Shown piece after piece: positions 3,288 through 23,255 of a stretch of DNA of 45,128 nt. The position numbers and the translations under genes were made by a program. The notes under the pieces were generated by a model, which worked only from the letters and a program-made list of their open reading frames with translations, was not told the DNA's origin and searched no databases. The first letter of the stretch is position 1. The number at the start of each line of letters is the position of its first letter. Source of the DNA: Candidatus Saccharimonadota bacterium (GTDB taxonomy: Bacteria; Patescibacteriota; Saccharimonadia; Saccharimonadales; Saccharimonadaceae); the NCBI GenBank assembly GCA_030527585.1, contig JAUNAL010000004.1, positions 1 to 45,128 on the forward strand, read 5' to 3'.

Positions 3288-5102
3288 CTACTTCCCCGTC
3301 GGATTAGTCGTAATCAAATTCTCTTCCGTTTCTGACGCAATCACCTGGATATGAACGTGGTTTTGTCCCGCAAAGAACAACCCTTGCCCAACTGGGAAGT
3401 TCGCAAGCCGCCTCTTCTCTTCTTCAGTGAGCTTAAACACATCAGACAAAACGTCCACCGCCGAAGCCGATTGTTTCAACAAAAGCTGCATCGACGAGTT
3501 CGCCACAATCGCTCGTCCCATCTTCGAGCTCATAAAGTCCTCGACGTCCTGCGTAATCGTCGTCAGCCCCAAGTAATATTTACGAGCACGCTTCGCGAGC
3601 GAGAACAAGAAATTCGCTGAATCTTCGAATTGCATCAACTGCCAAGCCTCGTCCACAATCAACATTCGTTTCTTCTGGTCCGCCCTCACCACATTCCAAA
3701 TATGTGACAACACAATATACATTGCAACCGGTCGAAGCTCATCCTCAAGGTCCCGAATGTTAAACACCACCATTTGATTATTAATATCAACATTCGATTG
3801 TTGTGAGAAAATCCCTGCAAACGTCCCGGTCGTATATTTTCGAAGCCTCTGTGCAAGTTGTGGTCCCGACCCCTCCATATGAAGCAAAGTATCATAAAGA
3901 TTCATAATCGTCGGTGGCGTCGACTGGTGCGTCAACGGATCCGCCGTAATCCCAACTCTCGCATAAGTATCAATAAGCGCCTGGTCAAGATCCGCCTCCT
4001 CATTTGCAGTAAGCGCCGGAACAACCTGCCCTCCCGCTGTCATCTGATTCCCGCCTAGCATCAATCTAAACAACCCGTGCAAAGTCACCAAATTAGCGCG
4101 CAAAGCATCATTTGCATCTTCCGCATCCACCACTTTCGGCAAATCGAACGGATTAATCCGCACGTCCGAATTAAGCGACAACCAAACATACGACCCGCCA
4201 ACCGCATCACACAACTTCTGGTACTCATTCTCCGGATCAATAATAATAATTTCCGACCCCACCATCATCGAGCGAAGCGCCTCCAATTTCACCGCAAACG
4301 ACTTACCAGCACCAGACTTCGCAAAGACCACCATATTCGCATTCTCTAAAGAGAACCGATCGAAAATCACCAAACCGTTATTATGCATATTAATTCCATA
4401 CAAAATCCCCTTATCCTGCGTCAAATCCGCCGAGGTGAACGGGAACGACGTCGAAATCGCCCCAGTATTCATATTTCGCCGAATCTGCAACTGATCCGTA
4501 CATTGCGGCATAATCGAATTCATCCCTTGCTCTTGCTGCGAACTTGCTACTTTCGAGAAAATCATCTGCTGCCCAAAAATCGTCTCGATCTTCTGCTGCA
4601 CAAACTTGAGTTCATCCAAAGAGTCCGCCCAAAGCGTCACATAAAGCCCAAACCGGAAAAACTTTTCCGCCCCAACCTGAAGTTGGTCTCGCAGCTCTTC
4701 TGCGTCATTAATCGCCGCCTCAAGCTCCGGATCCCTAACTCGTCCCTTCTCCGCATTCAAATTCATCGAGGCTTCAAGCTGTGTCACTTTCGTTTTCAAG
4801 TTCTTCATCACCACCGCCGACTCAACCGGATAAATATACATCGAAACATCAATTACCTCATCAATATTCACAATCGGCGAAATCCAACCCGTATAAAGCG
4901 ACCGCGGATATCCATAAACATACAACGTCCGCCCATATTTCGTCCCCAATCTAAAATAATCCGAATGAATTTCAATCGCCGCCGGCGAAATCAAATCTCT
5001 TAAAGTGTTCGTCCCCTGTTCGAACGCCCGCTGAATCTGCGCCGCTTCCATCGCCTCGGCTTGCGCCGCAATCTCTGCTGCCGTCAACTTCTTCTTAGCC
5101 AT
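3288..5102 (-). CDS. virB4: VirB4-like type IV secretion ATPase
   Basis: A 604-residue ATPase of the VirB4/TraC/TrbE family, which energises assembly or substrate transfer in type IV secretion and conjugation systems from the cytoplasmic face of the membrane. Visible motifs are Walker A AKSGAGKSF (near residue 265), a following acidic strand IIIIDPEN, Walker B MLIVDEAW (near 490) and a QD motif (TTITQDVEDF) typical of the family. The start codon overlaps the stop of the TraC-like gene as TAATG, so the two are translationally coupled. Together they equal one full-length VirB4, whose N-terminal part is a separate protein here. The gene ends just before the dnaJ CIRCE. Confidence 0.93.
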   Translation of the reverse strand: MAKKKLTAAEIAAQAEAMEAAQIQRAFEQGTNTLRDLISPAAIEIHSDYFRLGTKYGRTLYVYGYPRSLYTGWISPIVNIDEVIDVSMYIYPVESAVVMKNLKTKVTQLEASMNLNAEKGRVRDPELEAAINDAEELRDQLQVGAEKFFRFGLYVTLWADSLDELKFVQQKIETIFGQQMIFSKVASSQQEQGMNSIMPQCTDQLQIRRNMNTGAISTSFPFTSADLTQDKGILYGINMHNNGLVIFDRFSLENANMVVFAKSGAGKSFAVKLEALRSMMVGSEIIIIDPENEYQKLCDAVGGSYVWLSLNSDVRINPFDLPKVVDAEDANDALRANLVTLHGLFRLMLGGNQMTAGGQVVPALTANEEADLDQALIDTYARVGITADPLTHQSTPPTIMNLYDTLLHMEGSGPQLAQRLRKYTTGTFAGIFSQQSNVDINNQMVVFNIRDLEDELRPVAMYIVLSHIWNVVRADQKKRMLIVDEAWQLMQFEDSANFLFSLAKRARKYYLGLTTITQDVEDFMSSKMGRAIVANSSMQLLLKQSASAVDVLSDVFKLTEEEKRRLANFPVGQGLFFAGQNHVHIQVIASETEENLITTNPTGK

Positions 5103-8465: not shown

Positions 8466-11400
8466 TTACGCACCGCCTGGATATAGCGTTGGGTCTCTAA
8501 GTAGACCCCTCAAATACTCTCGAAGTTCAAAGGCATCTGCAGATTTATTCTTCTCATAGAACTTCTCGTACTTGTAAGCGATGAAGCTCTCTTCGCCTAG
8601 CCAGTCAGCAATTTCTTCCATAGACTTTCTAAAGAACACTTCGCTATCATCATCCCTACATTCCGCATAAAGATCGTCAATCGCCGCCATGTATGCATTT
8701 CTATCCGCCTCAGTATAGTAATATGATGATGTCGTATCGTCATCTTCCATATATGGGTCTGCTTCACTCCTGCGCTTGCGCTCCTCTTGATATGCACGCT
8801 TTTGCTCTTCACGGCTTTGATTCAAATAATCGTTAATCGCAACTTCATTATCAAGGTTAAGCCAGTAGCGCATCCAGTCTTTTGCGTTGTTCGCCGCACC
8901 GGAACGTCGCGTGCGATAAATCTGTTCAAGCTTGCCACTATCTGCAAGAATCTTGCGAACACGTTTACCGGTCATCTCATCTTTCAATGCCATCAATTCC
9001 TTATCGCGATTCTTCCTTGCCTCTCCAATCGGTGAATTGCCATACTTATTCTGAATCTGTGCCACTCGTGCATTATACTCCGCTCGGCGCTCTGGATGTT
9101 CAGGATCGTCTAGCCAGGCATTCGTCAAATGCTCATTCACTGCCGCCTTATAGTCACTTCGCATACCCAAAATCTGTGCCGGAGTTTGATCTTTAAAATA
9201 TTTCTCCGTCTTTTCGCGGAAATATTTTTCCGTCATAGCTCTCTCTTCATCAGACATAGACTCGTTTTCCCACTCCGCAACCCACTCATAAATTGGGTTG
9301 CCTTTTTCGTCTACAGCTACTTTGCCACTTTCGTCTTTCTTTTGCTTACGCGAATAACCCGTCAAAGAAGTCACTGCGCTACTTAATTGCTCAGAACCGG
9401 AAAGATATTTAAGGCTCGCGGAAATAAACTGTGGGGCAATTGCCGTATCAATTTCTTGACGTTTTGCCAAATAAGCTGCTTGGTCAACCTTTCCAGTTTC
9501 CGGATCCGTATAAACCTTCTTAAGGCTATCAGCCAAATTTGCAAAAGCCGTCCGTTCCACATTATCAAACGATGTACCCTCCAGAAGCGTCGTCATCGGT
9601 CGCTTCGCATACATAAGTTCACCATTCGGTTCCTCATGATAGCCTTTCACATACTCATCAAACGTAATTTTCGCTTCTTTACGATCATCCGTATTATACA
9701 TCCGTGCAGTTTCAAGGTTAATGTACTTGCCAAACCTACGCAACGTCGGATCAGCATCCTTGACATCAAACATCAAGAACGAAGCCAGTGCTTGCGATGC
9801 GTGTGTTCCGAGCTCTAGCCCACCATCAAGAACATCGTCCATAATATTCTTAACGATATCCGTATCACCACGTCGGTTAACCTCTCTAAGGCCCGCAATG
9901 ATTGCATCAATACTCTCCGTTGCCTTTTTATTCGGGTTAAGTGACAGCTCTTTGATTCTATATTCAAGATCCTTTGTTGGCGGAGTCATTTCAAAATACT
10001 TCTGGAACTTCGTCATAATAATCTTATTCTGGGTGTCATATGCCGCCGCTGCCGAGGCTGCTGCAAAATGAGTATAGTCAACCTCGCCCTCCATAATCTT
10101 ACTAATATCATTATATCTGCCAAGAGCTTCTTTGAATTGAGCCGATTGCATATCTGCAAAGTGCTTCTTATATTTTCCTGCATTAATATTAACATTGTCG
10201 AAATGCGCGTTCATCGCCGCCTCCATACGTCCATGGAACCCCTTCGCATTCTCGAACTCAATCATTTCCCCTCTCGCCTGCTCAGCCTTCAAGAGATCTG
10301 AAGCGACCACATTTCGCATATCAAGATTATCGAGAATTGCTTTATCAGTCGTCCCCGCCTCTGCACGATAACCGAACCCTTTATTCATATTATTCGCATG
10401 CCGCGCCACGACCCGCTGATACTCCATCCCCCTCGCCTGGTCACCATACGCCCTCTGCCCACGCGAAGACAATGTCCCATCAAGATTACCCTTTCGATAA
10501 TTCCGCTTCGCATCATAAGCCAACCCCCGGCTCTTCACCGTAGTCGTATGTCGCGCCGTCTCCTCGCCCCTAGCAATCCTGCGATTCTCCAAATACTGTC
10601 TAAGTTTCAAAGATGGCGTATACGCATCCGCTCGTGCCAAGTTCTTCGCTCTCGTCAAATCGCGATGCGAGCCAGCCCAAGCCCGGTTCGTGTTGAGAGG
10701 ACCCGCCGCCAACCGATGCATCCCTGCGTTGATCGTCGACAGGAACGTCCCAGACATCTTCATCATCTTCCAAGAGAAGAACAATGGGAAAATCTGCACC
10801 GCCGTCCCGAGCAATAATGAAAAACCATCTCTAGAATTTACAATAATCGCCCACCCCGCAAGCGACGAAGCCCCAAACAGAAGCGAGAACATCGGATAAA
10901 ATACCAACATTCTATATAATAATTGTTTCCACTGCTTAAACCACTTGTCCGTATTCGGCAAAATATACGCCACCATCGCCAGCGGCGCAATCATAATCAG
11001 AAGTACCACCACTGCCTGTCGAAGCGCAATTGTAATAAGTCCCGCCGCAACCGAAACAATCGCCCCAAGCACCACTGGAATCAACATCCAAATCGTCCCC
11101 ATCTCAAACGCAACCACACCCCCACCAATCGCCAATGCCGTCCCTCCAGCCATCGCCGAGTACATCTCCGCCATCGCCACATGCGACTGCCCGTTCGACA
11201 GATTCATCCCAGACATCGTCGCCGCCTCAATCGACTCAAACAATCCCCGGAGGCTATTCCCGATAATATTCGACAAATCCACCGCCAAAGAACAAATAAT
11301 AAAGCTTAAGTTTACCAAAATCGCCGCCACAATCAACTTCGGTAGCGACTTCTTCAGCCCGTAATTATTAATCCCATAGCCCGTAATCTGCGAATAAATC

Positions 11401-11849
11401 ACCACCAAAAGGAAAATAATAAAGACAATGTTCGTAACCGCCCTAAAATACTTCCAAATCTCGTAAATCGGCTGCCCGTCCTCCGCTTTAACCGGATTAA
11501 TTACCAAAATATCTTCAATTTTCTCATACAGCCAGTCCACCGCCTCAGAAATCTTGCCCGTCGTCGGACAAACCAGCCAGCCAAGCGACCCCAAACTATC
11601 CTCGCACGATACGCTAGAAGCAGCAGTCGTCGCAGTATTCGTCGTCCCGGTGTTAACCCCAGTATCCGTACCAGCTTCAACCTGTGTTGGCTCATTCGTT
11701 TCAGGCGCCGCCGAAACCTCTGTCACCCCAAAAACCCCAAACACAGAAGTGAGCATTATCATAATACCGAAAAAGAACCCAAAAACGGCTTTCTTCAAAT
11801 TAAATTTTGAGATTTTTTTCGCTATCATAATAATAAAAACTTCCCACAC
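8466..11849 (-). CDS. TrbL/VirB6-like large membrane protein
   Basis: A protein of about 1,127 residues with a cleavable-looking leader (VFGFFFGIMIMLTSVFGVF...VSAAPE), a Thr/Gln-rich stretch, then a polytopic region (about 140-390) with six to eight hydrophobic helices such as FRAVTNIVFIIFLLVVIYSQ and AVVVLLIMIAPLAMVAYILP. A hydrophilic, mostly helical tail of about 730 residues follows, rich in Arg/Glu/Ala. This architecture fits the TrbL/VirB6 channel proteins of type IV secretion, with an unusually long cytoplasmic tail as often seen in CPR. GTG 11849 or ATG 11828 may be the start; both have a weakly spaced Shine-Dalgarno-like sequence. It is transcribed alone, divergently from the pilin-repeat gene. 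No enzymatic motif was seen in the tail. Confidence 0.8.
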   Translation of the reverse strand: MWEVFIIMIAKKISKFNLKKAVFGFFFGIMIMLTSVFGVFGVTEVSAAPETNEPTQVEAGTDTGVNTGTTNTATTAASSVSCEDSLGSLGWLVCPTTGKISEAVDWLYEKIEDILVINPVKAEDGQPIYEIWKYFRAVTNIVFIIFLLVVIYSQITGYGINNYGLKKSLPKLIVAAILVNLSFIICSLAVDLSNIIGNSLRGLFESIEAATMSGMNLSNGQSHVAMAEMYSAMAGGTALAIGGGVVAFEMGTIWMLIPVVLGAIVSVAAGLITIALRQAVVVLLIMIAPLAMVAYILPNTDKWFKQWKQLLYRMLVFYPMFSLLFGASSLAGWAIIVNSRDGFSLLLGTAVQIFPLFFSWKMMKMSGTFLSTINAGMHRLAAGPLNTNRAWAGSHRDLTRAKNLARADAYTPSLKLRQYLENRRIARGEETARHTTTVKSRGLAYDAKRNYRKGNLDGTLSSRGQRAYGDQARGMEYQRVVARHANNMNKGFGYRAEAGTTDKAILDNLDMRNVVASDLLKAEQARGEMIEFENAKGFHGRMEAAMNAHFDNVNINAGKYKKHFADMQSAQFKEALGRYNDISKIMEGEVDYTHFAAASAAAAYDTQNKIIMTKFQKYFEMTPPTKDLEYRIKELSLNPNKKATESIDAIIAGLREVNRRGDTDIVKNIMDDVLDGGLELGTHASQALASFLMFDVKDADPTLRRFGKYINLETARMYNTDDRKEAKITFDEYVKGYHEEPNGELMYAKRPMTTLLEGTSFDNVERTAFANLADSLKKVYTDPETGKVDQAAYLAKRQEIDTAIAPQFISASLKYLSGSEQLSSAVTSLTGYSRKQKKDESGKVAVDEKGNPIYEWVAEWENESMSDEERAMTEKYFREKTEKYFKDQTPAQILGMRSDYKAAVNEHLTNAWLDDPEHPERRAEYNARVAQIQNKYGNSPIGEARKNRDKELMALKDEMTGKRVRKILADSGKLEQIYRTRRSGAANNAKDWMRYWLNLDNEVAINDYLNQSREEQKRAYQEERKRRSEADPYMEDDDTTSSYYYTEADRNAYMAAIDDLYAECRDDDSEVFFRKSMEEIADWLGEESFIAYKYEKFYEKNKSADAFELREYLRGLLRDPTLYPGGA

Positions 11850-21146: not shown

Positions 21147-21710
21147 TTACCTTATCCCTTTTAGCCTTTCCCAAGCCGTCTCAGTCAAAAACATCATATT
21201 CTGTAACAAAGTCGCTATCTCTTCATCTTGAAAACCGCTCTTGCCCCATTCCTCGATCAATGTCAAAATCTCCGCTCTACAAATCTCATAAATTCTTGTC
21301 TGTTTTTCCGAAACCCGCGCCGTCCTTATTATTTCCGGGCGCAACCTATCAATCATTTTCACGAGTGTCATTCCTTTTTCTTCCTCCAGAAAAACCTTGA
21401 AGACTTTCCTTTCGTGAAAAATAAACCGCAGCATTTCAAAATACAGTTTTCGTAAATTAGTTCCCTTTGCTGGCGCCATTACTTTCAGGTATTTCTTGAA
21501 AATATATTCATCGTAATCCTTAAGGACATTTCTCGCCGCACGGTGATGATTATAAAAAGTCGAGCGTGTCAGCCCGACTCCTCTCATGATCTGAAAAACA
21601 CTTTTACGTTTCTTCCCCGAATAAGACTCCAGAATGATTTCCTCAGACTTCCGGAACCGTCGATCTTTCATCTTCTCTTCCGTTAGCCGGCACTCATCCT
21701 CATTCACCAT
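21147..21710 (-). CDS. TetR-like transcriptional regulator
   Basis: A 187-residue protein beginning MVNEDECRL. Residues 20-80 hold a TetR-type helix-turn-helix: RFRKSEEIILESY, then VGLTRSTFYNHHRAARNVLKDYDEYI, which matches the pattern GvsrgtfY-hF. The rest is an all-helical ligand/dimer domain. I chose ATG 21710 over ATG 21746 because a TATAAT box (21722-21717) lies between them, 6 nt before 21710, giving a leaderless mRNA. The -35 TTGCAA (21746-21741) is immediately beyond the tracrRNA terminator. Its target is unknown; the divergent or neighbouring units in the island are candidates. Confidence 0.75.
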   Translation of the reverse strand: MVNEDECRLTEEKMKDRRFRKSEEIILESYSGKKRKSVFQIMRGVGLTRSTFYNHHRAARNVLKDYDEYIFKKYLKVMAPAKGTNLRKLYFEMLRFIFHERKVFKVFLEEEKGMTLVKMIDRLRPEIIRTARVSEKQTRIYEICRAEILTLIEEWGKSGFQDEEIATLLQNMMFLTETAWERLKGIR

Positions 21711-21716
21711 AATTTC

Positions 21717-21746
21717 ATTATATCTGAAAGAATAACCCTTTTGCAA
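21717..21746 (-). promoter_or_regulatory. Promoter of the TetR-like gene
   Basis: TTGCAA (21746-21741), 18-nt spacer, TATAAT (21722-21717), 6 nt to ATG. Confidence 0.75.
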
Positions 21747-21757
21747 TAGCTTTTTGC

Positions 21758-21856
21758 AACAAAAAGCCCCACACTGGGGCCAAAGGGTTTCGCTAAATGA
21801 CCGAAGCCACCGCTTATTTGAACTTATCGTGTCATCAATCGTATAATCTGACGTCT
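21758..21856 (-). ncRNA. tracrRNA of a type II CRISPR-Cas9 system
   Basis: On the minus strand this reads as a complete tracrRNA. The anti-repeat (21852-21816) pairs with the CRISPR repeat at 21883-21918. From the foot of the duplex: six pairs (repeat GUUUGA with UCAAAU), a bulge of GA opposite AAGU, seven pairs (AUCGUGU with ACACGAU), a 4-5 nt internal loop, and 16 perfect pairs. The GA/AAGU bulge is the same as in the Streptococcus pyogenes guide. Next comes a nexus-like hairpin with a UUCG loop (21811-21796), a short linker, and a GCCCC/GGGGC terminator with U5 (21780-21761). A promoter TTCTCA-17-TATTAT (21891-21863) predicts a start near 21856. It should fold with crRNA and load Cas9; no cas gene is in the window. 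Confidence 0.88.
21761..21780 (-). terminator. Terminator of the tracrRNA
   Basis: GCCCC-AGTGT-GGGGC followed by U5 on the minus strand. Confidence 0.88.
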
Positions 21857-21918
21857 TAGAGGATAATAGCTCCGCGTTTTTCGTTTGAGAATCGTGTAAT
21901 TTAATCGTATAATCTGAC
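21816..21918 (+). CRISPR. Minimal type II CRISPR unit: degenerate repeat, 30-nt spacer, 36-nt repeat
   Basis: Two related direct copies lie 66 nt apart. The right copy (21883-21918) is 36 nt, begins GTTTGAGA and ends ATAATCTGAC. The left copy (21816-21852) is degenerate at its start but shares the terminal 16 nt exactly; read on the other strand it is the tracrRNA anti-repeat. Between them lies a 30-nt sequence (21853-21882), the standard type II spacer length. Each copy ends with a TATAAT that would start transcription at the first bases beyond the repeat, as reported for type II-C arrays of Neisseria: TTGAAC-18-TATAAT in the left, TTGAGA-17-TATAAT in the right. No third repeat was found 66 nt further on either side. 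Confidence 0.75.
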
Positions 21919-22646: not shown

Positions 22647-23255
22647 TTATCGTACCGAATTCACAATTATTTTTTCCAGGGCCTCTCTATACTTTTTGTC
22701 GCCATATATTGTATCCATAATCATATCACACAAAATCTGATCCCCCGACATAGCACTTTCCTCGTCATATCTCATTTCCGGATCTAAGCATGCAATCGGA
22801 ATCTCAACATTATTGATCCACCATTTATCAATCTTTTTATAAGTTTCAATAAAAGCAGCGAAATTGATAATCATCCTCTCGTCAAATTCACCCATAATCA
22901 ATTCCGAAAGTTCGTGGCTAATTTTATTTCTATCATCTCTTGCGACGATTATGTTGTTATATTCTTTTTCCGTTATCGCCTCTTTATCTTTAAATCAGCA
23001 AATCGAACTTAAAAATAAATTTTTCTTGCCATCAATTTTTCTATTTTTTAAATCCCTATAGAAACTAGTTTCAATTAGCTTTTCTTCGCCATTTTCAATC
23101 GTAAAACCACTGCACAAAAAATATTTAAGATTCTCTGTAACTGATGTCTTAAATCTTTCAAAAAGCAATAGATACATTGCGTAAAAAATCAAATTATCCT
23201 TTAGATTCTTTTCATCAGTTAATCTTACGAATTGCTCTATAAGCTCCCCTCTCAC
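22647..23255 (-). pseudogene. HEPN-type protein interrupted by an in-frame UGA
   Basis: The gene starts at GTG 23255, overlapping the uvrA stop as GTGA. The frame is open except for one UGA at 22997-22995; the same frame continues to 22647, giving about 202 residues if read through. The second part contains ARDDRNKISHELSEL, with the RNxxxH (R-x4-H) motif of HEPN ribonucleases. The rest is helical (YAMYLLLFERFKTSV). HEPN proteins are common in abortive infection and toxin systems; I cannot assign a subfamily. UGA ends other genes here, so this is probably a nonsense mutation (for example from UGG), although a real two-fragment arrangement cannot be excluded. It is AT-rich and next to the CRISPR remnant. 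Confidence 0.65.

Follow-up and report, generated by a model that had tools for sequence, protein, structure and literature searches.

CRISPR loci with solitary repeats or without cas genes

In phages, solitary repeat units and RNA anti-CRISPRs consist of a single repeat outside an array. Among bacteria, the reduced genome of Spiroplasma syrphidicola EA1 carries a Cas-less CRISPR locus with a putative tracrRNA (PMC6882279), and for small RNAs of the Francisella novicida scaRNA type an origin from array remnants has been proposed (PMC6199352). CRISPR-Cas systems, II-A included, were reported in 22 of 318 Saccharibacteria genomes (PMC10746230).

The locus described here lies in a window that is the whole of contig C5 (45,128 bases) of a genome, G000 (598 kb in 37 contigs, 84% complete), from a gut Saccharibacteria genus. 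It comprises a tracrRNA gene, one spacer and one repeat, and is probably the scar left when the cas genes of a type II-A CRISPR-Cas9 locus were excised by recombination between the anti-repeat of the tracrRNA gene and a repeat of the array.

Structure of the locus

The tracrRNA gene occupies positions 21761–21856 of the minus strand, with a predicted 5' end at about 21856, and is recognised by homology to cas9-adjacent tracrRNAs and by a covariance model that matches 21761–21854 at E 8e-16, the seven family tracrRNAs from which the model was made including that of the window itself. No tracrRNA family in Rfam matched it at the gathering threshold. Its anti-repeat (21816–21852, minus strand) reads on the plus strand as a degenerate repeat, whose outer 16 nt (21837–21852) coincide with the 3' end of the repeat at 16/16 positions, up to its boundary. 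Folding places a nexus-like hairpin with a UUCG loop at 21796–21811 (minus strand), and both folding and a terminator scan place an intrinsic terminator hairpin, followed by TTTTT, at 21765–21781 (minus strand). On the plus strand the anti-repeat is followed by a single spacer (21853–21882), which fills the gap of exactly 30 nt between anti-repeat and repeat and has the size of the spacers of intact arrays in the genus; the single 36-nt type II repeat, GTTTGAGAATCGTGTAATTTAATCGTATAATCTGAC, occupies 21883–21918 (plus strand) and has near-identical counterparts in the arrays of G204, G303, G268 and G288.

The anti-repeat is complementary to the repeat, as a type II-A tracrRNA demands. The repeat:tracrRNA duplex has a computed energy of −38.4 kcal/mol, compared with −14.4 ± 2.9 kcal/mol for 500 shuffled repeats, the best of which reached −28.3 kcal/mol, and the joined repeat-tracrRNA fold has −56.3 kcal/mol (z = −8.9; equalled by 0 of 200 shuffles). 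This fold contains a lower stem, a GA/AAGU bulge, an upper stem, the UUCG nexus hairpin and the terminator, so that as modelled the RNA is a type II tracrRNA in its features. Independently of these energies, chance is excluded by the homologous tracrRNAs that other members of the genus carry beside genuine cas9 genes. The earlier note had placed an orphan type II tracrRNA and a single repeat, with no cas9 in view, at 21758–21918; these limits are correct to within a few bases, the minus-strand RNA gene with its anti-repeat, UUCG nexus-like hairpin and terminator reappears in the joint fold, and the pairing claimed for the anti-repeat and the 36-nt repeat 30 nt away, GA/AAGU bulge included, is borne out by the duplex energy and by that fold. 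The note would have abandoned its reading had the pairing not been conserved in relatives, and homologues of both the tracrRNA and the repeat do exist there.

No array of at least two repeats is present: there is one repeat, the anti-repeat is its sole second look-alike, and no further copy was found in the genome outside the tracrRNA locus. A search of the 84%-complete genome with TIGR01865 gave no Cas9 match at E ≤ 10, and no Cas1 was found in the bin at E ≤ 1; the genome-wide search for cas9 and for extra repeats that the note had called for thus returned neither. Within the window, tblastn with four sets of cas proteins (cas1, cas2 and csn2 among them) detected no convincing cas debris. 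The cas genes are probably absent from this genome, probability rather than proof being warranted because 16% of it is missing from the assembly, and the cas9 and cas1 that a type II-A system should have were not found for the window locus.

Three promoter-like sites were picked out by a consensus scan. One, for the tracrRNA, lies within the spacer and repeat (21863–21891, minus strand; TTCTCA-17-TATTAT, 9/12); another, in the anti-repeat, could transcribe the spacer and repeat (21818–21847, plus strand; TTGAAC-18-TATAAT); the third lies in the repeat (21885–21913, plus strand; TTGAGA-17-TATAAT, 11/12). Transcription of the locus from these predicted sites is possible. A promoter within the repeat is a known feature of type II-C repeats. 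Among the arrays L120, L121, L122 and L123, the full promoter-like site TTGAGA-17-TATAAT is also present in the repeats of G303, whose system is nevertheless II-A, and a perfect −10 element is missing from the repeats of G204, G268 and G288.

Intact type II-A loci in the genus

When 84,980 genomes were searched with the core of the anti-repeat, homologous tracrRNAs came up in Saccharibacteria, several of them adjoining cas9. Cas9 exceeds the cut-off in 11 of the 174 genomes of the window genus, five of these 11 encoding a protein of about 1,400 aa; the view of the earlier note that CRISPR is unexpected in a CPR genome was therefore overstated, as the published count of 22 in 318 also indicates. 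The tracrRNA lies beside cas9 in G204, G268, G303, G288 and G084, and whole loci could be read in the first four. All four contain homologues of cas9, cas1, cas2 and csn2, NCBIfam names the cas genes for G204 and partly for G268, and the four loci are type II-A.

Their order is the same throughout: a divergent tracrRNA gene upstream of cas9, then cas9-cas1-cas2-csn2, then the array in the direction of the cas genes. The arrays carry 8–14 repeats, which show few differences from that of the window, with a 66-nt period (36 + 30) and one final unit of 65; the terminal repeat of the G268 array is degenerate. Read on the cas strand, the anti-repeat of 4/4 loci is an imperfect version of the array repeat, with the same direction, and lies 6.3–7.5 kb upstream of the first array repeat; the cas operon is therefore flanked by direct repeats. 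Compared with the array repeat, the outer part of the intact anti-repeats shows scattered mismatches or indels.

Further Cas9-profile matches, in G001, G104, G116 and G195 (same genus, among others), were set aside as a partial domain rather than Cas9: they fall below the cut-off and cover some 70–110 residues at profile positions 546–675. The family also commonly has another CRISPR type, with a Cas9 of about 1100 aa, the repeat GTTATAGTTCCCTAACAATTTAGATATTGGTATAAT and a 66-nt period (L024, L027–L031, L034). A sequence resembling a degenerate form of this other repeat adjoins the trailer end of the G303 array (L122:3744–3775), which suggests that CRISPR systems have succeeded one another at this site.

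Other tracrRNA loci without an adjacent cas9

The tracrRNA model matches eight of 394 family genomes, and in three of the 394 (the window genome, G255 and G384) the match has no adjacent cas9. Among the eight, a repeat 30 nt away is confined to cas9-less loci. G255 has the same layout as the window, with a tracrRNA, one 30-nt spacer and one repeat. This genome is 95% complete; its best Cas9 match (15 bits, E 0.0017) is below the cut-off and Cas1 was not found in it. Its single repeat is degenerate in the 3' half, resembling the terminal repeat of G268; the outer 28 nt of its anti-repeat match the G268 array repeat at 27/28 positions, and the anti-repeat as a whole agrees at 36/38 with a hybrid constructed in silico, compared with 35/40 for the G268 anti-repeat.

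Yet another locus of this kind was found outside the family, in a Clostridia MAG (L054, the same as G395; 3405–3510), where a tracrRNA, a 30-nt spacer different from that of the window and one repeat are present and neither Cas9 nor Cas1 was found; among 396 genomes of the order to which this MAG belongs, no other matched the layout. G384 carries a solitary tracrRNA with neither repeat nor cas9 beside it (L152; G384:C1:39659–39762, plus strand), flanked by genes whose translations read as DsbA-like and tyrosine-recombinase-like (integrase-like); a different, shorter Cas9 is encoded on a separate contig of that genome. Viral contigs gave 17 and 41 pattern matches to the layout, all judged by eye to be coding sequence or chance.

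Origin of the locus

The excision would have proceeded by recombination or slippage joining the anti-repeat to the second-last repeat of the array, and the resulting deletion would have removed cas9-cas1-cas2-csn2 together with the leader and every spacer and repeat of the array except the last of each. What is expected to remain is a tracrRNA whose anti-repeat is a hybrid, followed by a single 30-nt spacer and a single repeat that keep the register of the array exactly. A product of just this layout is what the window holds, and it is from this layout that we infer the event. The 30-nt register, common to the window, G255 and L054 and equal to the spacer size of intact arrays, supports it. 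The outer anti-repeat is predicted to match the array repeat, as it does in the window (16/16) and in G255 (27/28); a degenerate last repeat is allowed for, and is seen in G255 as in the G268 array; and all four cas genes should have been lost jointly, which is also seen. The hybrid anti-repeat is by itself a moderate argument, its hybrid nature being only moderately discriminated because intact loci also have full-length anti-repeats, and the register is the stronger one. The scars in the window and in G255 look like separate events, since their junctions differ.

Several observations count against the excision. None of the compared intact loci shares its flanks with the window locus, so that loss in place is presumed rather than directly seen; there is one remnant per species; and the window genome is 84% complete. 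The missing cas debris is expected from a clean excision and equally from other histories.

It is unlikely that the window holds a working one-spacer array and tracrRNA served by cas9, cas1, cas2 and csn2 on contigs missing from the assembly. The genome is indeed incomplete and in 37 contigs, the RNAs look intact and promoter-like sites are present; however, the searches for Cas9 and Cas1 were negative, cas9 stands directly beside the tracrRNA in 4/4 readable relatives whereas the window contig runs on without it, and the 95%-complete G255 combines the same layout with no Cas9 over the cut-off and no Cas1. The locus is most likely derived from type II-A and is not a working member of it.

The chances are poorer that Cas9 has gone and the RNA pair has been retained for some other role, such as antisense action or regulation by the pair, or guiding or decoying a Cas9 that other elements bring in. 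Such retention would account for the perfect secondary structure kept by both RNAs, the promoter-like sites, the recurrence of the layout in G255 and the Clostridia MAG, and the solitary tracrRNA kept in G384. Yet the spacers differ between loci, and searches of phages, plasmids, IMG/VR and the window genome itself gave the window spacer no convincing target, the genome having one site with three mismatches besides the spacer; of the G255 spacer, 19 nt are matched by a single IMG/VR contig. That no more than 3/394 family genomes have a tracrRNA not adjoined by cas9 also argues against long conservation, and the intactness of the RNAs is explained by a recent loss. Slimmer still is the prospect that a unit left by excision has been kept as a Cas9-free dual RNA that acts in trans, whether by guiding or decoying the Cas9 of incoming elements or as an antisense pair. 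Nothing supports a regulatory role; the RNAs look intact but are probably functionless now, the pair being expected to do nothing because no Cas9 was found. The earlier note had left the choice among a cas9 elsewhere in the genome, a remnant and RNAs kept for regulation: the remnant is upheld, as a type II-A excision product, regulation has nothing in its favour, and a cas9 elsewhere is disfavoured by the lack of any match, 16% of the genome being missing.

An ectopic acquisition, with a single spacer added next to the anti-repeat by Cas1-Cas2 and the anti-repeat copied in the process, the cas genes being lost separately afterwards, would also give the 30-nt spacing and the matching outer 16 nt, but is very improbable, since the duplicate should carry the AAGU-side bases of the anti-repeat, ATTTGAACTTATCG, whereas the 5' end of the actual repeat is the one that arrays have, GTTTGAGAATCG; in G255 it is the opposite half of the outer repeat that has degenerated. 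An assembly artefact that merged tracrRNA and array through the sequence common to anti-repeat and repeat and dropped the cas genes is hardly credible either, because the longest exact common block, 16 nt, is shorter than the k-mers commonly used, the layout recurs in separate MAGs whose junctions differ, and no cas genes were found elsewhere in these bins.

Genomic site and neighbouring genes

The ackA-uvrA interval of the window contains a 232-aa ORF, a TetR-like gene and the scar, as well as some 700 bases that lack a long ORF and a probable pseudogene beyond them. In relatives this site reads groEL-groES-TetR-(ackA)-208 aa-uvrA, with TetR beside groES and no CRISPR in the loci read; the window site fits a place of gene gain and decay. 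Synteny between the window, G255 and the intact loci yielded no common flanking genes except one weak ABC-ATPase match.

The TetR-like gene (21147–21746, minus strand), situated between the scar and ackA, was named by eye, Pfam giving only a weak HTH_29 match. Its homologues, the closest 40% identical, lie near groEL in the relatives read, mostly beside groES, and by its position the window copy would be displaced or a paralogue. Beside uvrA, a frame of about 200 aa (22647–23255, minus strand) is interrupted by a single TGA, in frame, near 22995. The motif RNKISH (Rx4H), as in HEPN proteins, was noted in it by eye, and PADLOC gives it no more than a weak AbiEii match (E 0.009); it probably represents a defence or toxin-like gene in decay. 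Elsewhere in the window, 8466–11849 (minus strand) encodes an 1127-aa protein with a weak TrbL/VirB6 match.

Significance and comparison with known systems

CRISPR-Cas systems are frequently gained and lost, yet how they are physically lost can seldom be seen. The II-A layout itself, with direct repeats around the cas operon, supplies both a deletion route and a recognisable scar. Two scars in the genus, against five genomes with a II-A-like Cas9 (about 1400 aa), suggest that the route may be frequent, and such scars would allow II-A losses to be counted across genomes. Similar layouts exist elsewhere, for example in streptococci, which makes the deletion idea testable in culture. No description of recombination between anti-repeat and array repeat as a route of deletion came up in the literature searched; cas-less tracrRNA loci are already known.

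The solitary repeat units of phages resemble the window locus in having a single repeat, whereas the latter is on a bacterial chromosome, together with a tracrRNA, and no phage copy of it was found. Like scaRNA, it would give a small RNA with one repeat-like part able to pair with tracrRNA; scaRNA, however, acts with a resident Cas9 (PMC6199352), and none was found in the window genome. Regulation of a gene through tracrRNA and Cas9, which defines scaRNA, is not seen here, neither a Cas9 nor a convincing target having been found in the genome. With S. syrphidicola EA1 the locus shares repeats and a predicted tracrRNA in the absence of cas genes, the difference being that EA1 has kept nine repeats; no analysis of register or excision was seen for it (PMC6882279). 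In comparison with the type II-A systems of Saccharibacteria (G204, G268, G303, G288; PMC10746230), the window locus lacks cas9, cas1, cas2, csn2 and the leader and has one repeat instead of 8–14, but it belongs to the same repeat family, keeps the 36 + 30 periodicity, and has a homologous tracrRNA with the AAGU bulge and the terminator in common.
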